DNA from: Pseudocercospora fijiensis CIRAD86
Taxonomy: Eukaryota > Ascomycota > Dothideomycetes > Mycosphaerellales > Mycosphaerellaceae
Reading direction: 5' to 3'
DNA length: 64,000 nucleotides
Assembly: GCF_000340215.1 (NCBI RefSeq)
Contig: NW_006921548.1
Span: forward strand, 173,400-237,399
The translations under genes and the position numbers were made by a program. The notes under the pieces are model-generated. The model saw only the letters and a program-made list of their open reading frames with translations. It was not told the origin of the DNA and made no database searches. This document shows positions 24,287-58,250 of this stretch, piece after piece; position 1 is the first letter of the stretch; the number at the start of each line of letters is the position of its first letter.

Positions 24287-24574
24287 GTAGGCAACGAGGG
24301 GCTCTCTAGAATAGAAGGGAAGGAGAGACTTCTTTGAGAAGTCGGCGAAGTAGGTTAAGTAGCGGACTTCGAAGCTAGTAATAGGGGAGAATAAGCTACG
24401 CTTACTTAGGAGTCTAGCTTAGGCGGCGTCGTAGGCAACGAGGGGCTCTCTAGAATAGGAGAGAAGGAGAGACTTCTTTAAGGAGTTAGCGAAGTAGGTT
24501 AAGTAGCGGACTTCGAAGCTAGTAATAGGGAAGAATAAGCTACGCTTCCTTAGGAGTTAGGCTTAGGCGGCGTC
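24287..24574. repeat. Two tandem 144-bp units
   Basis: GTAGGCAACGAGGGGCTC starts at 24287 and again at 24431. The unit is exactly 48 codons, so the duplication is in frame with the minus-strand gene. The copies differ mainly by transitions, plus a two-base change near the end. Confidence 0.85.
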
Positions 24575-24924
24575 GCTAGTATAGAAGCTAGCGGGGAAGG
24601 CGTCGCTAGTATAGAAGCTAGCTAGGAAGGCGTCGCTAGTATAGAAGCTAGCGCGGGAGGTATCGCTAGTATAGAAGCTAGCTAGGGAGGTATCGCTAGT
24701 ATAGAAGCTAGCGCGGGAGGTATCGCTAGTATAGAAGCTAGCGTAGGAGGTATCGCTAGTATAGAAGCTAGCGCGGGAGGTATCGCTAGTATAGAAGCTA
24801 GCGCGGGAGATATCGCTAGTATAGAAGCTAGCGCGGGAGGTATCGCTAGTATAGAAGCTAGCGCGGGAGGTATCGCTAGTATAGAAGCTAGCGCGGGAGG
24901 TATCGCTAGTATAGAAGCTAGCGC
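24572..24924. repeat. Twelve tandem 30-bp units
   Basis: The unit GTCGCTAGTATAGAAGCTAG plus ten variable bases repeats 12 times, with the first 18-20 bases almost invariant. Ten codons per unit keep the frame of the minus-strand gene (LASILAIPPA). The strong uniformity, against the RIP-mutated surroundings, suggests recent expansion or that units this short escape RIP. Confidence 0.92.
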
Positions 24925-25656
24925 TAGTAGGGATTGTGCTATAGCGGACGAAGGGGGTCTAGCAGCTATTAGAGCGGGGCGGTAAACTGTTCTATATAGG
25001 GTAAGAGGACCTATATACGAAGGGAGAGTATTAGATAGGTATACTAGTTAAGTGCTATCTATTTTAGGGAGAAGGGGACGTAGAGGAGCCCGCCGAATAG
25101 CTAACTAAGGCTAGTCGTAGGTAGAGACAGCCTATACGATCGATTATTAAACGATAGACGTAGAAGTACTATTCCTTAGAGTAGAGCTAGCGGCGTTAGC
25201 TCTAGTAAATTAATCGACTACCGCGATAATATCGTCGATCTCGAGCTAGTTAATATAGGTAGCAAGGAGCTATAGCCTATCTCTAGTGTTTGTACGCGGC
25301 GCTATCTATAAAGAGAGCGGTAGTAGTCGTAGTACTAGGAGAAGTAGCCGTCCCTAACTAGCCGAATAGTGCTAACTCTAGAGTGTTTAACTACCTACTA
25401 CGCCTATTTAGCTACGAAGTAGAGGGTTAATATAGGGGATAGGTTAGGTAGCCGAGGAGGTAGACGATATAGCGGCTAGATATAGTAGTAGCGCAGACGA
25501 AGAAGATACTACGCCTAGGTCTTACTCGGCTTATTATACTTTCTTCTAGACTCGTCGTAGAGCCGTACTCGCTAACTTCCTCGCGGTACGTTCGGCCTTC
25601 TTCTTCTACTCTTCCTCTTTAGTACCGAGTAGCTTACGCTATCCTTTAGGCGGCAT

Positions 25657-39547: not shown

Positions 39548-39917
39548 GTATAATCTAGACGCCGTAGTAGTTCGGGTTAGGTTAGGTTAGTTTGCTAAGC
39601 CAAAATTCCGGGTTAGTTTAGTTCGGTTTGCTAAGAAACTATAGGATTAGCTAGTTCGAACTATAGAACTTATCGGTTTCTAACACTTAAAGCATGCCCT
39701 TTGTAAGACTAGTACTAATAGAATTTCCGAAGACTTTAATTCTATACGCTTAAGAAAGCATATTATACTATATATATATACCTAGAGAGCATATAGAGCG
39801 CGCTATATAGCGCTATATTTTGTGTATAGAAACGCTTATAGAGGACACTAAGAACAACTACGCTACCTATTACCTTAGCGAATAAAGACATTCTAGCTAG
39901 TAAGAATCCGATCGAGG

Positions 39918-40300
39918 TAGACCCTATAGTAGTCCGGGTTAGGTTGGTTTAGTTTGCTAAGCCGAAATTCTAGTTTAGTTTAGTTTAGTTTGCTAAGCAA
40001 CCGGTACACGGACCGGTTTGCCGGCTACGTGCCGGCTACGGACAAAAACCTATCCCAAAACACGTCTAAATAGCCCGAAATACAGATGCAATCGTATAGC
40101 GTATACAATATAGGGCCCCCGTCGCGTCCGGGACTAAATCCGAGGTCGTCGTATACCGTCGTAGTTTAGTCGGATTTTCTCGGAAACTAGCTTAGACTAG
40201 CGGGGTAAAAAACTAAACCGGAACTAAACCGGAGGGGTACCGCTAAGAAACTAAACTATATACGTTTAGTAGTTCGCAAACCGAACTACTATAGGGTCTA
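39918..40300. mobile_element. 383-bp non-autonomous hAT copy with 8-bp target duplication
   Basis: The ends are TAGACCCTATAGTAGTCCGG (39918-39937) and, inverted, TAGACCCTATAGTAGTTCGG (40281-40300): 19 of 20 positions match. The element is flanked by perfect 8-bp direct repeats GATCGAGG at 39910-39917 and 40301-40308, the target-site size expected for hAT. Subterminal GGTTAGG and TTTGCTAAGC boxes, and two GCCGGCTACG boxes at about 40020-40040, link it to the autonomous copies. It has no coding capacity and is inserted in the 3' end of the first H3-like gene. Confidence 0.93.
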
Positions 40301-40995
40301 GATCGAGGGCGATAAAATCCTTCTATATTATCGTAATGCGCTTAGCGTAAATAGCTATAAGCTAGACAGCTAAAACAGTATTAGTATAGTTCGAAAAGAG
40401 GTAGAAGAGAAACATATATTCGAAGATACGAATTAGGTAGGCTTCTATAGCCTCTTAAAGGGCCTCGATTATAGATCTCTAAAAGCGAAGATCGGCTTAA
40501 TAGAAGACGGCGATTTCGCGAATAAGTCGCTAGAAGGGAGCTTTCGGAATAAGGAGCTAGTTACCCTTCTAATACCTCCGAATCTTACAAAAGGCTACGG
40601 CTAAAGAAGGACTAGCAAAAAGGAGCAAAGATACCGGCTACGCTACCGGCTACGCTACCGGCTATACTACCGGCTATACTACCGGCTATAGAGAAAACTT
40701 ACTTCCTAAGCGCTATCGACGGTTGCTACGATTATTGCTACTAGTAGTAGAAGCACTCGTCGTCGTCTTACGCGGAGTCTTACCTACCGTTGTCTTATCC
40801 GCCGTCGTCTTATATAGAGCCTTACCTATAATCTACTTTTAACTAGCGCGACCGGTAGCGGTAGCGGCTATCTTACGTAAATATATAGTACTCTTTCTAT
40901 TAGGTCTAGTTATGTTACGACCCTAGGTAGCGGTAGGTCCCTTCTTACGACCCTTCTAGATTTAGTCGAGTAGATTCGCTATTATAAAAGTCGTC
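40301..40995 (-). pseudogene. Divergent histone H3-like gene relic, copy 1
   Basis: Exon 1 (40703 to about 40995) encodes a Lys/Thr/Ser-rich tail (GKALYKTTADKTTVGKTP) ending RRQRLG. It joins exon 2 across a 102-nt intron to read RRQRLGTVAFCKIRRYQKG, matching the H3 pattern RYRPGTVALREIRRYQK. Next come LLIPKAPFQRLIREI, ADLRFQRSIIEALQEAIEAY and, after a second intron with a TACTAATAC branch, IAIYAKRITIIQKDFIALD, the end of the H3 fold. No extra residues are present in loop 1, so it is not clearly CENP-A. The 3' end is broken by the 383-bp hAT copy. Only TAG/TAA interrupt it. It lies downstream of, and on the same strand as, the hAT transposase. Confidence 0.82.
40601..40702 (-). other. H3 copy-1 intron filled with GCCGGCTA repeats
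   Basis: Donor GTAAGT (40702) and acceptor TTCTTTAG (40601), phase 1, splitting the Thr codon of the GTVA motif. Its 5' half is five tandem units of TAGCCGGTAG type at 11-bp spacing. Confidence 0.75.
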
Positions 40996-41493
40996 GAATT
41001 AGCAAAAAGGTGCGTTGCGAAGGTATAGAAAGGCGCGCGCGGAGCGGAGGTATAGTAGAGGTAGTAGATATAGAGCGTAGAAGTATCGATACGAAGATTA
41101 TATATAGCGAGAGGGGTAGTAACGCGGTATCGCTAGGCAACTAAGTAAGCTTCGCGCAAGCCTATAGTAGAGTAACGTTATAGTAAGTAAAGAAGGTAGG
41201 TACGGCTAAAAGAGGCAGGAACGGCAAACTTTAAAATATAGCCGGTACCTATAGCCGGTATAGGAAAACCGCGAAAGCCTCCTTTTAGTAAATAGTCGGC
41301 GTAATAAAGGTAGCCTACTATAATATAGATATTTTTTAGTAGTCCGATTAAATTCCGAACTGTCTTTCTCGACTAGAAATAGAAATACCTATCCGCCGTA
41401 TAGTAAAACGGCGACTCGCTTTATAGCGAGAATCTAGTAAATTCTGCCTAGTAATACTATTAGCAGATAATTAAAAATTATAAAAAAGGAAAT

Positions 41494-41646
41494 AACTAGT
41501 ATAGGAATTGAACCTACGACCTCTTAGACCCTATCGATCCTATATCCCCTTAAATAGCCTATAGCTAGGCGGGGACTATTATAGCTAAGTAGCTAGGAAA
41601 TATAGGTCTTTTGTAGCTAAGAATTATACTACTAGACTAACTAGCT
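41494..41646 (-). tRNA. tRNA-like sequence, intron-containing, degenerate (Pro-like)
   Basis: The 5' acceptor strand AGCTAGT (41646-41640) pairs over 7 bp with the 3' strand ACTAGTT (41500-41494). The D-arm region reads TAGTCTAGTAGTATAATTC, close to fungal tRNA-Pro, and the T-arm is GTAGG-TTCAATT-CCTAT. TCTTAG (5') pairs with CTAAGA (3') as an anticodon stem, but about 85 nt lie between them, so the intron is unusually long or holds an insertion, and the anticodon cannot be read with confidence. G:U pairs in the stems are consistent with RIP-type changes. It is probably a pseudo-tRNA, or a tRNA-derived SINE head. Confidence 0.5.
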
Positions 41647-41699
41647 AGAATATAAAATAGACGAGAAATACTAGGAATATATACCTTTAGGATACTAAA

Positions 41700-42208
41700 T
41701 TCTCGGCGTTCCTACTAGAGAATTTAGAAATAGACTATAATATACTATCTAGGCGACTCTAGTCGCGAGGCGACATCTATAGCCGTCTATCTAAAGGATA
41801 TAGCTCGTTAAGGGGCAACGAGTATAGTACTAGCTCGACGACGGAAGAACTAAGTTCTCTCTCTAGCTCTTCTATTTAATATATTAAGGCTTCCTCTACC
41901 TTTATAATACTATATATACTAGGTTTCTACTTCGTACCTTAAATCTAGGTAGGGCGCGGAGTTGAAATAAGAGGTATAGCCGGTATATATAGCCGGTAAA
42001 AGGATACGGAAAGAAGCCTCCTCCTACTAAAAGGTCGGCCTATCTAGGGAAGCCTACTATAGTATAGATATTCTCTAGCAATGTAATTTATAGAGAATTA
42101 GGGAGCGTTAATAGAGAAGGAGAAGGAGAAGGCATCGAAGGGCTTACGCCCTAAGAGGGGCCGTTCGCCGGGTAAGCGATTAGTCTAGTTGCTAAATACA
42201 AATCCTAA
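41700..42208. other. Spacer between tRNA-like sequence and H3 copy 2
   Basis: No gene. Contains two GCCGG(C/T)A boxes near 41975-41995 (ATAGCCGGTATATATAGCCGG) and a short GAGAAGG run near 42120. It shares a segment with the region left of the tRNA: ACTATAATATAGATATT.. CTAGCAATGTAATT (42060) versus the copy at 41318, which suggests that the two H3 units arose by duplication. Confidence 0.5.
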
Positions 42209-42960
42209 TTATTCCGCTACAAATCGACGCCGAATCTTAGCTAGAAGCTATATATCTTTTTATTAAAGAGTAACCCGCTTCGTATAGATAGTAAGAAGGT
42301 TAGAAAGCTCTAACTCGGTTATAAGAAATGCCTCCGTAGCTTCTTAAAGAGCACTAACCGCCTTAGCCGTAAATCGTATACCGGACTTAAAATCTAATAT
42401 AATTTCTCGGACGAGTCGCTAGAAAGGAGCCTTAAGGATTAAAAGCTTAGTCCCCTTTTTTTCTTAGAATTTCCGGATCTCGCGGAGGGTAATAGTACCC
42501 GGTTTAAAGCGCCGGCGTTTGCCCTTTTTCCTTATAGAAGAATAACTCTTCTTCGCGATAGTCTTCGTCCGCCTACTTTTTTTTCCTACTTTAGCCGAAG
42601 CCGCCTTGTTTTTCGATACTATTTTACGAAGAACCCCCTTCCTTTATATATACTACGAATAGTCCTCCTCTTCCGATATCTCGTTCTCGCTACGGTCTTC
42701 CCGTACTTAGCGTCCTTTACTCTTACTCTTTTCTAAGTTCTTAAGGTATCTTTATATATATTCGGGCGACGAGGGTATACTAGTAGTACCTAGAAAATCT
42801 CTAAGCCTTTAATCGTAAAAAGACATTAAGTGCCTCTTACCTTCCGAACTAAATAGTCTTTTATTAAACTAGTTTAGTAGGCCCTCGTTAGATTCGTAAT
42901 TAGTATAGTCGCTATAGGGAGAGGAGGCGGCCGACTTAGCAAGGCCCGAAGAGCCGAATC
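42209..42960 (-). pseudogene. Divergent histone H3-like gene relic, copy 2
   Basis: The C-terminal 100 residues align to histone H3 without gaps: RFKPGTITLREIRKFQ, LLILKAPFQRLVREI, DFKSGIRFTAKAVSALQEAT, LSNLLTIYTKRVTL and KDIQLLAKIRRRFVAE, then TAA at 42211-42209. H3's DTNLCAIHAKRVTI has become LSNLLTIYTKRVTL, with H>Y and C>L-type changes. The tail upstream is strongly basic (RRTKTIAKKSYSSIRKKGKR) and longer than a normal H3 tail. Loop 1 is of ordinary H3 length, so it lacks the CENP-A hallmark. One frameshift lies at an A-run (42456-42462 on the plus strand). It sits just downstream of the hAT transposase on the same strand. Confidence 0.87.
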
Positions 42961-43189
42961 CGTAAGGTATATTTGTATTTTAGAAGATAGGGAAAGGGAA
43001 GAAGGAGAGGAAGAGCGAATAGAGACTTAGAAATAGTAGTAGGCGAGCGGGGTAGGTTGCTATAGCAACTACTCTATTTAAGAATTTAAAACACATTAGG
43101 AACGTATACCGGCTATATATACCGACTATATAGGTCGGTTATATATAGAAACTCTAGTAAATGTAGCTATTTACTAGCTATACCTACCG

Positions 43190-45560
43190 GCTATATTACC
43201 TTCTACGTAAACGCTTCGCCTACTTTAAGTCGCCCTTAGCCTATATACGCTTCCGCTTCTCGACTCGTAGTCGCCTTCTACCTCCGCCCTCTTCCTCTTC
43301 GTTATCGCTAATAAGGGTCTCGCTTAGACTAAATTTCGCATTCTCTTTATACTCCTAAGTTTCTTCGATCTTAAGCTTTTCTAATTAGTCGATAAGCTCC
43401 TTTAATAAGATATATAGTATCTTGCCTTAGCGACTCTAGTAGAAGAGGTAGTATCGGAATACTATACTAGATTCGAAGGTAGTAGGCGAGTATATTCGAT
43501 TAAACCGGCCTTAGTAACGAGCGATACTAAAAGATCTCTTATAGCCTATATCTACGCTCGGAATAGCGAGGACGTCCCGAGCGATCGAAGCTATCGTTAG
43601 AAACTTAGGCTCTAACCGCTACTATATAGCGAGAATATCGTCTCCGAATTCGTCTTAAAGACTAGTAAGATCTAGAGATTATTAGCCCTCTTTCCGAGCC
43701 TATAAGTTTAGTACTTACCTACGCTCCGATAGAGATCGAACTCTTCTTTATTTAGTATAGAACTAACTTACTCTTCTGCCTCTACTTCCTACCTACTAAA
43801 TAGGTAGGATATCGGAGCCTTCTTAGCCTTCCTTTTCCTAATACGACCTATATTTAGACTAGTTTCTTTCCGACGCTTACTAAATATCTTTTCTAAAACC
43901 TCCTAATATCGCTTAGGCTATACCTTATTATCCTTCTATTCCTCCTTCTACTAGTATATATCCTTTTTAACTAGGTTTAGTAAGTACGTAACGCTATAAA
44001 GCTCCCCGAACGACTCGAAGGTAGTACTATAATATTTATCTAGCTTAGTATAGGAAGCCTCTATAGCTTTCGTTATAGCTACTTTCTAAGGGACGCTCTT
44101 CTTAGCTAGCTTAGCTGTAAGTTCTTTAAGCTAATTAAAGAGCTAGTTATAGTACGTAAAGACAAGGTAGATCGTCGGTCCTTAGATTCTTTTAATCGTA
44201 GTAGTAACCTTTACGTAATGTTTGCTAATATCTACGAGATACTCTACTTAGCGCTATTCGGCGGGTATAAGCGCGAGCTACTTAACACCCTTAGTATTCT
44301 AATAGAGCTCGAGAGCGGTACGTAAAGTACATCCTCTCGTAAGTATATAGAAAGTCGAATCGAATCGGGTCTTAATATCTTAGGTAAAACGGAGTAGGCG
44401 CTAAGGAGGCCGCTTTTGCTATCGCTTATTCTATATAATATTCTAAGTATCGACTTTAGGGCGCTCGATAAGGGTCTTTTAAATAGCCTCGAATCGGTTA
44501 TATCTCTATAAGCTCGAGTTCGTATAGATTGCTAGACGACGAAGCTAGAAAAAGAGGGTTAATACTATCCTAGATTGCCGGCTATAGGTGCCGGCTATAG
44601 GTACCGGCTACGGATAAAGGTTATACCTTATATAAAACGAGAGCGAGGCTCTCTACCTTATCCTATTTTATTACCGTAACGAGTTTCTCGACTCTCGACT
44701 TTGCTTTACCCTTAGCTAGGACCTTCTATTAGTCGTCGTTAGATAGTGCAATTTTAAGCGTCTTAAAAAGGGCTCGGATCGCGATTTAAACTATATAAGC
44801 GAGGTAGGGAAACTTCCGTAGGGATATAACCGCTAATATCGGCTCCTATTCTATAGGGCCGTTAGGGTTTCTTATCTAAGGGTCCTTATTATCTTCCGGG
44901 TCGTGCGTATCCGAAATCGTAGTAAGCTTAATATTAGGTAGATTAAGCTAGATTATAGACCTTATAATCTCGTCTATATAGTCGACCCTATTAGTACTAT
45001 TAGTTATTTCGAAGATAAATACAAATAGATAGTATATATAACGCCTTATATAATGTTCGATTATTACTAGCGTTGTCTATAGTAATCGAGATTAGTTTCG
45101 TAGTTACGCTAACCCTATCTATTACTATATAGATAAGCTTCGCTATATCCTAACTAGTATAGGAACCTAGAATTTCTAGGAATCCGATTAGCATTTCCTA
45201 GAGTTTCTAATCCGAATTAATAAAGTATAGTATAATAGAGAGGAAGGAGGCCCTTATAGTCCGGCTTAACTAGCTATCGATAGTAATAGCTACTCGGCGA
45301 GTATTACGGAGAATCTCCCGAATATCGTCTAACGTAGCCTCTTTATTCTTCTCGAATATAGTACGCTACGTAGTTACGCCTAGAAATATAGAGGGGTACT
45401 TTATAAGACATAGGTATGTCTTCTATATAGAATCCCTTTCGAAGAAGTCTTCCGGAAGACTATTTATAGCTAATATTTCGTTTACTAGTTGCTTAATGTT
45501 ACGGGTAAGCAACGCGTACGCAGATGCTAGATATAAGACTTAATAGGTTCGATAAAGAGC
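43190..45560 (-). pseudogene. hAT transposase relic, copy 1
   Basis: Catalytic region (45.5-44.9 kb): a segment nearly identical to copy 2 with LPEDFFERDSI, then IDSxLSRTIRASFLSI, ITTDNASNN (at 45060-45077) and further on KFPYLAYIVQIAIRALFKTL. The middle region matches the fungal hAT pattern: ALIPAEQRQVEYLVDISKHY, QGPTIYLVFTYYNQLF, LAKKSVPQKVAITKAIEASY and KLDKYYSTTFESFGELY. A C-terminal part at 43.3-43.6 kb (ARDLLVSL region) may be the dimerisation domain. An intron with GTAGAG donor, three GCCGGCTATAG boxes and TTAACC...TTTTTCTAG acceptor is at 44545-44656. The N-terminal zinc-finger part is missing beyond about 45500. Confidence 0.82.
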
Positions 45561-54334: not shown

Positions 54335-54539
54335 AAGACCCCGTAGTAGTTCGGTTTCCGAACTACTAAACGTATATAGTTTAGTTTCTTAGCGGCGAAC
54401 TAGCTCCCTAGTTCCGGTTTGGTTTTTTCGAACTATATAGATTCCTGGTTTATACTAGAGACTGTATTAGTTTTACTATAAGGACACTCTTATTCGACTG
54501 CCGGCTACGATTACCGGCTATAATAGTAACTCTGTTATA

Positions 54540-54782
54540 TTTACTACGCTCTTTTGCCGTTGCTAGGGCGTAGTTACCGTTACTAGGGCGTAGTTGCCGT
54601 TGCTAGGGCGTAGTTTTACTATAAGGACACTCTTATTCGACTGCCGGCTACGATTGCCGGCTATAATAGTTACTAGGTTGTATTTACTACGCTTTATTAC
54701 CGTTGCTACGGCGTAGTTGCCGTTGCTAGGGCGTAGTTGCCGTTACTAGGGCGTAGTTACTATTACTAAGGCGTAGTTACTA
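54540..54782. repeat. 22-bp tandem repeats in hAT 2 leader
   Basis: GTTGCTAGGGCGTAGTTGCC and variants repeat about eight times in two blocks. A longer duplicated unit of about 140 bp (TTTACTATAAGGACACTCTT at 54472 and 54612) contains GCCGGCTACG boxes. Transitions dominate the differences. Confidence 0.82.
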
Positions 54783-54949
54783 TAGTTGCGAAAGCTTACC
54801 TACATAACGTTATATAGGCGGCAACAATTAGGGCTTCGCGATATTCTTACACTTTTAACTTCTTCCTCTATACCTATACCGATAATAACTACTATACGCT
54901 GCGCCCCCGCCCCTTTCCCTTATAATAGTAAGAGAGAAGCGCGCCGCGC

Positions 54950-56350
54950 GCTAAACAGAAGATAGAACTAAAGACCGCGAGTTTGTTTTGCCTAAGCGTC
55001 TAACTAAAAAGCGCAAGACTAAAGAGGAGTACTCTACGAAAAAGAATTCCGTACGAGACCGCGAGAGAAAGGATAAGATAGATAAGGATAAAAGAGCTAA
55101 GGATAAGAGAAGAAAGGCGCGGAATAAGGCATTCTATCGATAGCTAGCGCCTATAGAAAAAAGTAAAGGTTAGAATAAGAAGACAACCTAAGAGAAGGCT
55201 AAGAGGAGGAAAGAATTGCGGCTAGTTTTCGAGCGTAAAGTTCTAGCAGCGTAAGTTAATCTAGCTAGCGGCCGTAGCTAGCAGCTATAGCCGGCAGCCG
55301 TAGCCGGCAGCTATAGCCGGTATATTTTTCTTTAACACGTTAACTAATAGTATTTAGACCTATAGCCGCTACCTCTATCGATACGACCGATAGTAACGGA
55401 GATGTTTAGATAGCCGAGAACAACAATACTAGAGTTTAGGATGCCGCGACAGAGCTTAATACTACGAATAAAGGAACTAAAAAAAGCGAGGAGATACTAT
55501 ACGTTGATCTAGTAATAGGTGCAGTCTTAGGGCCTAACGCTATAAACGATAAGCGCTAGGAGTAGATCGAGTATAGTCAAAGAGACGAGATACTAGTAAA
55601 GGGCTAAGGTATAAGTCCTATCAATCTAGAAAATTATAGTTAAAGCTACTACGAAAAGCTAGTAAGGATTGGAATCGAGACTAGTCGTCTTTATATCCTC
55701 GATATAGAGTAGAAGTTTCTTTATTAGTATTAGAGCGAAGCCTTTGCGTCTATAAAGGCAAAGTAGCTTACGATTAATGCGATTAGGGCTAGGTATCTAG
55801 GGACGGTAGAAGTGTTACTATAGGAGGAAGGGGTATAGGTAATTATTCTATACTCGGCATATATAGCCGGCGTTCGTAGCCGGCAGATACTAACAGTTAA
55901 ATAGAAAGCGTTTCTCGAAGGCAGAGTACTACTACTATATAAAATCTTTACTAAGGTAGAGAGGGCTTGTATCCGGAATCTAAGCTACTAGTAGGATAGG
56001 TTAGCGTTAGAATTCTCTAAATCTCTATATAAGCCTCCGAAGGATTACCTATTTCAGCGATACGGCTTTATCTCGACTACTCCGTAGGTATCCGAAGAAG
56101 CTCGAGCGCTCTTTAAGGTCTTTACTAAGAAGCGGAAGGAGTTCGAGGATTAGGATTAGTTAATAGAGCTGTTAGTTAGTCTTAGGTTTCGTAGTTAGAC
56201 TCGGCCTAAGCATTTGCTTATCGAGTGTCTTATACCGAAAGAGGATAGATTAAGACTAAAAACGAGCTTAGATTCGTTAGGTATAGTAGCTCGGTTCCGT
56301 TAGTAGGAGAGAGCCGCCGTATAGAAGGCAAAATTCAGGTAGTTAGGGTA
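54950..56350 (+). pseudogene. hAT-associated first gene, unknown
   Basis: Exon 1 is extremely basic (Lys/Arg/Asp-rich, 54960-55248, for example KRKTKEEYST). An intron with GTAAGT donor and TTAACTAATAG acceptor (55249-55342) follows and holds three GCCGGCTA boxes. Exon 2 reads LYVDLVIGAVLGPNAIND, YYEKLVRIGIETSRLYILD, LGTVEVLLQEEGVQV and PPKDYLFQRYGFIS, with a further GCCGGC cluster at 55861-55888 that may be another intron. The frame ends near 56350 at a TAGTTAGGTAGCTAGG repeat. I recognise no domain. Position, between the hAT end and the transposase, suggests either an N-terminal part of a larger transposase or an accessory gene. Confidence 0.5.
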
Positions 56351-56440
56351 GCTAGGAAAGAAATTCTAGTAGTTAGGCTAGCTAGGGTAGCTAGGAAAAA
56401 AAATCTAGTAGTTAGGTAGCTAGGAAACAAAAAAAAAGGT
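56340..56440. repeat. TAGTTAGG(C/G)TAGCTAGG repeats
   Basis: Five or six 16- to 40-bp units of AGTTAGGGTAGCTAGG with short A-runs, between the first gene and the transposase of hAT 2. Confidence 0.7.
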
Positions 56441-56499
56441 AGCTAGCTATTTACTTCCTAGCGATTCCTAACGATACGATACTATAAAAGAAAGGGTGT

Positions 56500-58250
56500 T
56501 TCCCTATAGCTACTAGTATACATCTACTACTCCTAAGTCCTTACCTTACCGTACGAAACCTTAAAACATACCGACCGACATTGTATATATACTAGGCGCT
56601 ATACTAGGAAGGGTAATAACGAGACGATAGTCGAAACAGTCTAGTATACGAGCGAGATTGCGATAGCGTCGAGAGGAGGTCGTATACTTACCTTCGAGCC
56701 TATCGAGTCCTAGACGACGATTAGGGCTAGATTTATCCTCTCCGAATCCTAGTAGTAGGAATTTATTATAGGGTACTACTACCTAGTCCTTACCTTTACG
56801 GAGTCTAAGTAGAAGGTTGTTCGGAGATATAAGAACATCGAGTATTAACCCGGAAATCTTCGAAAAGGCTAGCTAGGCGTATCTTTAGAAACCCGAGTAT
56901 ATAGAGCAGTTTAATTAATAGGTCTATAAGATATAGTTCCCTTTATACTTACGTTCGAAGGAGTGTAAACTCCGGAAGTACTCGATGCGATAGGGGAGTA
57001 AGGAGCGAACGGACACATTCTAGAAGTTCTTTATAGAGGGGGCATTACACTATTATACGACTTCTCGACTTAAAGGTTAACTAGTAATTATCTATAACTT
57101 CTACGGTTCAATCTTAAAATACCCGAAACTAGGGGATAGGAACTTATCGCCTACGAACTATCTCTATTCTAAACGGTATTAGGAATCTTAAGGAGAGAGG
57201 AGAGTTAATATAGATATAGCGTTCTAGAAAGAGGTACGTCTTCTAAAATGCCGGCTATAGCTGCCGGCTATAGCTACCGGCTATAGCTACCGGCTATAGA
57301 TTCCGGCTATAGATTCCGGCTATAGATTCCGGCTACAGATTCCGGCTACTTAAATCAACCGTAGAGGTCTAGCTAATTATTATAGGCTGCGCTTAAGGAA
57401 GCTCTAGGATTAAAGGCTACCGATTTCTCCCCCGAAGACTTTAAGCAACTAGCAAACGAAATACTAGCTATAAACGGTCTTCCGGAAGACTTCTACGAAA
57501 GGGAGTCTATATAGAAGACATACCTATATCTTATAAACTACCCTCCCCTATTTCTCGGCGCGATAACCTAGCGTATTATATTCGAAAAGAACAAAGAGGC
57601 TACGTTAGACGACATTCGGGAGATCCTCTATAATACTCGCCGAGTAGCTATTACTATCGATAGCTAGTTAAGCCGGACTATAAGAGCCTCCTTCCTCTCG
57701 ATTATACTATACTTTATTAATTCGGATTAGAAACTCTAGGAACTTATAATCGGATTCCCTAAAATTCTAGGTTCCTATACTAGTAAGGATATAGCGAAGC
57801 TTATTTATACGGTAATAGATAGGGTTAGCGTAATAACGAAACTAATCTCGATTACTACGGACAACGCTAGTAATAATCGAATATTATATAAGGCGTTATA
57901 TATACAATTCACTCGTATATGTCTTTAAAATTACTAATTATATCGATAGGGTCGAGTACGTAGAGGAGATTATAAGGTCTATAATCTAGCTTAATCTTCC
58001 GAATGTTAAGCTCGCTACGATTCCGGATACGTACGATAATACGTACGATAATAACGATAAAGAGGAGCCTATTAATAGCCCTAGCCCTAACGAATCGGAG
58101 CCGACGTCGTTACTAGTTGTATCCCTATAGAAGTTTCCCTATAAGACGGGTATATTAGTAGGTAGATAGGGTAGTAGTAGGTACGAGTAGTATTTGTTAA
58201 GGATCTAGGAGGAGAGGGAGGAAGGTAGGAGAGTTAGCCTAACGCTAAGC
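56500..58250 (+). pseudogene. hAT transposase relic, copy 2
   Basis: The N-terminal part (56.6-57.2 kb) includes DTFQKFFIEGALHYYTTSRL. An intron (donor GTACGT near 57230, acceptor GCTAATTATTATAG at about 57387) carries eight tandem GCCGGCTATAG units. The core then reads INGLPEDFYERESI, YPPLFLGAITQRIIF, AITIDSxLSRTIRASFLSI, LIIGFPKILGSYTS and ITTDNASNN (57857-57880). These match the hAT signatures DxWTS..., LxxxxFxxIPxxHTG and TTDNAxNN. The frame is truncated near 58250, before the middle and C-terminal parts present in copy 1. Identity to copy 1 is high where both exist, with transition differences. Confidence 0.84.

Follow-up and report, generated by a model that had tools for sequence, protein, structure and literature searches.

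A truncated copy of a histone H3-carrying hAT element in Pseudocercospora fijiensis and the anatomy of its two H3-like genes

Structure of the element in the window and in full-length copies

We analyzed a stretch of 64,000 nucleotides from Pseudocercospora fijiensis CIRAD86 (contig NW_006921548.1, positions 173,400 to 237,399; hereafter, the window), in which an earlier note, made from the sequence alone, had described a hAT transposon with two histone H3 genes as cargo. The locus holds a hAT element that keeps its H3-side terminus at 39556 and has lost its transposase-side part beyond 45499. We consider it nearly certain that this is a truncated copy, mutated by repeat-induced point mutation (RIP), of a high-copy, autonomous-type hAT element that carries on one strand a transposase and two H3-like genes, one in which no intron is visible (H3-1) and one with two introns (H3-2). 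At 39556, the end pattern is matched without mismatch, and this end aligns to the H3-side terminus of full-length copies (position 169 of L001). Both the end and its polarity are as the earlier note had proposed. For the transposase, which had been placed at 45.5-43.2 kb, homology was confirmed from 45499 to 43168, but the copy proved to be cut at 45499 and its second end lost. When the end pattern, which was derived from the window sequence itself, was used in a degenerate form (up to 3 mismatches), it gave 5 matches in the window as compared to 0.23 expected, and 4 of these are real ends by their position.

In the genome (73.9 Mb in 30 contigs), the 20-base end pattern had 231 exact matches in forward and 242 in reverse orientation, and a reversed control gave 0 matches. 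Among 100 end places listed, 86 are located on contigs C1-C3; pairing of these 86 ends yielded 11 convergent pairs 1-11 kb apart. Both H3 regions were found inside all nine convergent pairs of 9.5-10.0 kb (L001-L006, L017, L018 and L020; lengths 9.57-10.0 kb), with the content of L020 judged by DNA alignment only. Of the two other pairs, one (L015, 5.2 kb) is bounded on one side by a complete miniature element and on the other by a transposase-side fragment, and one (3.5 kb) has an end in common with L020 and begins at a miniature element nested in L020. The 14 listed ends on contig C4 give no pair of 9.5-10.0 kb; the pairs looked into exclude two C4 pairs (approx. 4.5 and 3.8 kb) that share the end of a miniature element. 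Eight close pairs among the listed ends (368-393 bp) are miniature elements, and these, together with the two composite pairs (L015 and the 3.5-kb pair in L020), were, among the pairs looked into, the only cases with both ends and no H3 genes, which the earlier note had named as refuting.

The element shows the short terminal inverted repeats of the hAT superfamily as well as its 8-bp target site duplication; of the 10 testable copies, 7 have an exact one (L001, L003, L004, L005, L017, L020 and L011). L011 belongs to the window copy's own subfamily (subfamily A). Two subfamilies of the element exist, i.e., a main subfamily of 9.6-10.0 kb and the shorter subfamily A (8.6 kb in L011 and 8.2 kb in L012). 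Starting from the H3 genes, 19 of 35 H3-1 places scored on C1-C3 were accompanied at the expected distance by an exact end to one side or both, as compared to 0.15 at random, and 4 of the 35 had one on both sides. The H3 pair is cargo within hAT terminal repeats and target duplications, as had been claimed.

Several observations weigh against this reading of the locus. With its single end, the window copy offers no target duplication of its own to check. L002, L006 and L012 have both ends and no exact duplication, and L018 stood outside the duplication test, its far end lying beyond the fetched locus. No exact end at the expected distance was found for 16 of the 35 H3-1 places; such places would be expected from truncated copies and mutated ends. 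The transposase read-through, a RIP-mutated query, matched Dimer_Tnp_hAT at 13.8 bits (E 0.051), below the cut-off of 21.4, and a search with a likewise RIP-mutated query found no transposase homologues at E 0.001 or better among the 7993 top word-sharing candidates that were scored.

Table 1. Features of the hAT pieces in the window
Feature	Position	Strand	Evidence
Truncated hAT element, subfamily A	39556..45499	-	blastn to full-length copies L001-L006
H3-side terminal inverted repeat	39556..39575	+	pattern search, 0 mismatches
hAT transposase with several exons, lacking its 5' part; many in-frame stops	43168..45499	-	blastn; frames read in L001, L002, L011
H3-1, approx. 125-residue N-terminal extension and H3-like fold, no intron seen, in-frame stops	42185..42970	-	tblastn, alignments, L011 rows; bounds by eye
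H3-2 exon 1, long tail that includes H3-like motifs; ATA at the putative start codon	40703..40982	-	14-copy alignment; bounds by eye
H3-2 apparent intron 1, 102 nt in window copy, GTAAGT..TTTAG, contains CCGGCTATAG-type tandem repeats	40601..40702	-	14-copy alignment
H3-2 exon 2 (histone fold)	40418..40600	-	tblastn
H3-2 apparent intron 2, 48 nt, length of the published 16-residue insertion	40370..40417	-	copy alignment, genome-wide flank search
H3-2 exon 3, first part	40309..40369	-	homology restarts past miniature element at 39909
Miniature hAT element, 383 bp, in 3' part of H3-2	39918..40300	.	both ends found; exact 8-bp duplication
Copy B, second hAT piece: transposase-side terminus, leader with possible open reading frame, transposase 5' half	54335..58141	+	95% identity to L002; end with 1 mismatch

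The H3-2 gene spans 40982 to about 39895 on the minus strand and is interrupted by a miniature element, which is flanked by an exact 8-bp duplication (GATCGAGG at 39910-39917 and 40301-40308). Positions 1265-1501 and 1492-2528 of the full-length copy L001 align to 39710-39916 and 40297-41341 of the window, respectively, and overlap only in the duplicated stretch. The ends at 39918 and 40300, which belong to this separate element, and the nature of copy B were overlooked in the earlier note. In the leader of copy B (55413-56406, plus strand), a read-through frame of approx. 330 residues lies 5' of the transposase; it looks coding-like by eye and has no Pfam match, and Pfam searches with three copy B frames found no family at E up to 1. 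Two subfamily A copies, i.e., the window copy (at 45499) and L014 (at 7096), end at nearly the same element position, sharing 185 bases up to the cut point (92% identity) and nothing that matches beyond it. The window also contains a tandem array with a 30-bp period and 12 registers (24501-25010).

Identity of the two H3-like genes

Both genes on the element's minus strand, which the earlier note had recognized as H3-like, were matched by tblastn with a Neurospora H3 query (E 2.6e-27 for H3-1 and E 3.3e-15 for H3-2), and an H3-1 read-through from L011 matched the Pfam family Histone (96 bits, E 2.5e-27); the element's H3 genes encode a histone fold of the H3 type. With stops read as Q, identity to the host H3 was 51% (63/123) for H3-1 and 63% (76/120) for H3-2. 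H3-1 comprises approx. 250-260 residues, of which an extension of approx. 125 precedes the histone part, and H3-2 has some 45 residues ahead of ARK; both predicted proteins have long tails and have diverged. Just 5' of a possible start codon in the H3-1 extension, the three main copies inspected are one base shorter than subfamily A.

Homologues of H3-1 numbered 137 proteins at E up to 0.001, and several of the best 120 carry names of centromeric H3-like proteins. In centromeric H3 (CENP-A), loop 1 is longer than in H3; as no residues are added between REI and the next RF in either element H3, H3-1 was rejected as a CENP-A. Two of eight fetched H3-1 relatives were aligned, both from residue 85 or 87 on, which leaves the start of the extension uncovered. 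For H3-2, 2141 homologous proteins were found, the best 120 of which are H3 proteins by name or Pfam, with no Pyrenophora name among them.

A single host H3 was found, on contig C6; it has no stops, and its last exon is 98% identical to the Neurospora query. All 149 further H3-1-like places that were scored, out of 780 candidates (the window's own included), contain in-frame stops, i.e., no intact copy of the element's H3-1 was found among them.

Introns of H3-2

Two segments of H3-2 carry intron signals. The first, which measures 79-116 nt in 14 aligned copies, starts with GTAAGT, ends with TTTAG and contains CCGGC tandem repeats; TACTAAT is located near its end in 13 of the 14 copies, with TGCTAGT in the window copy. 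Judged by eye, it interrupts the Thr codon of PGT in phase 1, and the intron of the host H3, likewise in phase 1, interrupts the preceding Gly codon at a distance of 3 nt. This segment appears to be a further intron of H3-2, in addition to the second segment, which is 48 nt long in 14 of 14 copies. Once the second segment is removed, FESVNLIAIYAKR and host FEDTNLCAIHAKR can be aligned gap-free. The segment begins with GT in L002 and L004, and the remaining 12 copies have AT there; genome-wide, among places with exact flanks, 98 start with GT and 212 with AT, and a change from GT to AT is what TpG to TpA mutation predicts. The 16-residue insertion published for this gene as copy 2 reads as this 48-nt intron, and no such reading was found in the literature searched (supplements not covered). 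No intron was visible in H3-1 in the alignment of copies.

Mutation and selection before RIP

CpA plus TpG stood at 0.13-0.23 of the expected frequency in L001-L006 and at 0.20 in the window, which fits RIP. Because RIP makes transitions only, we counted purine/pyrimidine differences between subfamily majorities, comparing the majority states of main copies (9 for H3-2, 8 for H3-1 and 7 for the transposase) with those of 5 subfamily A copies. Exon bounds were set by eye, and gapped codons, sites without a 60% majority, and the second part of the H3-1 extension together with the tail were left out. In the transposase, 50 of 1454 sites of the amino-acid-changing type differed by transversion as compared to 18 of 225 fourfold sites (P = 0.003), which shows that the transposase was under constraint before RIP.

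In the pooled H3 genes, 77 of 861 changing sites and 9 of 164 fourfold sites differed (P = 0.17), so that constraint on these genes as a whole was not detectable by transversions in this test. Changing sites differed more often in the H3 genes than in the transposase (P = 4e-8), whereas for fourfold sites no such difference was found (P = 0.42). Four H3-1 segments examined by codon position showed no excess of third-position transversions. Within H3-1, 10 of 285 sites differed in the fold and 23 of 236 in the tested part of the extension; non-coding flanks showed 7 differences at 180 sites and introns 0 at 81. Overall, these data favour the view that most of the H3 sequence was under weak constraint at the protein level, or under none.

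A short repeat motif of the element

The 10-mer CCGGCTATAG occurs 12 times in the window as compared to 0.71 expected, always within the two hAT pieces. The earlier note had reported an 11-mer, restricted to hAT copies, in a transposase intron, between the H3 genes and in an H3 intron; its restriction to hAT in the window and its presence in the transposase hold, with exact copies at 44577 and 44590 in the transposase and at 55285, 57250 and 57263 in copy B, but the H3-2 intron (40682) and the spacer between the H3 genes (41249) contain the 10-mer only. CCGGCTATAG repeats are located at 40682, 41249, 44578-44600, 55285-55320 and 57251-57325, i.e., in the H3-2 intron, transposase introns and element spacers, with a spacing of 13 bp in copy B. 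They might represent candidate transposase-binding sites, or merely expanded intron satellites.

Origin and possible role of the H3 genes

On our reading of the locus as a truncated copy of an H3-carrying hAT element, an ancestral element would have captured one or two H3 genes, with at least copy 2 coming from intron-containing DNA or its introns being gained later; cut-and-paste movement would then have spread the element with both H3 genes as passengers, and RIP would afterwards have broken the copies seen. That the H3 pair lies beside the hAT sequence by chance, among nested or neighbouring repeats, with the end at 39556 belonging to something else, has a negligible probability. Nested insertion does occur here, since H3-2 harbours a miniature element that has ends and a duplication of its own, but the content is the same in all nine full-length pairs, which lie at different places in the genome, and this rules out a chance neighbourhood. 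It is rather doubtful, though clearly less remote, that the H3 genes derive from a host H3 transcript or retrocopy that was captured once and has been a pure passenger since, as in the published account (Dhillon et al. 2019; PMC6710886). The lack of a visible intron in H3-1 agrees with this origin; the two H3-2 segments with intron signals, one of them 3 nt from the host intron and in the same phase, argue against it, as do the tails of both element H3 genes, which the host H3 lacks. Given the apparent introns of copy 2, the likely route of capture, at least for this copy, would be genomic DNA rather than a transcript.

We consider it unlikely, and less probable than a captured transcript, that the H3 genes encode working proteins of the element (e.g. 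by altering nucleosomes, either those on the element's DNA or those at the silencing machinery) that were kept and diversified before RIP. Five of the six fixed length differences that separate the subfamilies in the H3 frames are divisible by three (by eye; 7 of 13 alignment rows for H3-1), the H3 splice signals are retained, the H3-1 fold is less changed than the tested extension, differences are at least as frequent at changing sites as at fourfold sites, and a Pyrenophora hAT, found dissimilar by Dhillon et al. 2019, also carries an H3-like gene, with expressed sequence tags (Manning et al. 2013; PMC3538342). However, the excess at changing sites is not significant and fits neutrality, the three main copies inspected lack one base of the H3-1 extension that is present in subfamily A, and an intact H3 copy was not found. 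The proposal of the earlier note that the H3 variants might mark the chromatin of the element or aid its escape from silencing gained no support here and stays a possibility only; in-frame stops occur at 149 of 149 scored places. Slightly less probable again is the view that two fast-diverging, long-tailed H3 variants are working transposon parts, directed against silencing or shaping nucleosomes, and that their repeated capture by dissimilar fungal hAT elements is a sign of selection. The use of histone variants by mobile elements becomes a testable question in relatives with intact copies.

Comparison with known H3-carrying hAT elements

The earlier note knew of no hAT elements with core histone genes; such elements are already known, published in 2013 and 2019, and the claim of novelty fails, apart from a few corrections to the published anatomy. 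Dhillon et al. 2019 (PMC6710886) describe, for P. fijiensis, 784 H3-like copies in 471 repeats of one hAT family, of which 133 are full-length (9.5-9.9 kb) and 99 have intact ends and duplications; RIP is reported to have broken every copy but the original on scaffold 6, and five related genomes are reported to show the same event. The element analyzed here, matched by description and not by sequence, is very probably the same: shared are a hAT of approx. 9.5-9.9 kb that has a 20-bp terminal repeat, an 8-bp duplication and either one or two H3-like genes, copies by the hundreds that RIP has broken, and an intact H3 on scaffold 6 there and on contig 6 here. Working from the raw sequence, we confirm the published case, in which a core histone gene was amplified by a DNA transposon.

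In that account, the 16-residue insertion in copy 2 is ascribed to mutation, no other domain was identifiable and no dimerisation region was found. Here, by contrast, the insertion reads as an intron, copy 2 appears to have a further intron, both H3 genes have long predicted tails, a shorter second subfamily exists, and the dimerisation region is represented by a match below the cut-off only. Manning et al. 2013 (PMC3538342) describe in Pyrenophora tritici-repentis a 5.6-kb hAT with a 2.3-kb derivative, in which one H3-like gene (H3L) lies between the terminal repeats together with an open reading frame of unknown function; the element copies are nearly identical, and expressed sequence tags exist for H3L. 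According to Dhillon et al. 2019, the P. fijiensis and Pyrenophora elements have no sequence similarity. By its published description, the Pyrenophora element resembles the family in the window in carrying an H3-like gene inside a hAT, and differs from it in its length of 5.6 kb, its single H3L, its near-identical copies and its expressed sequence tags.

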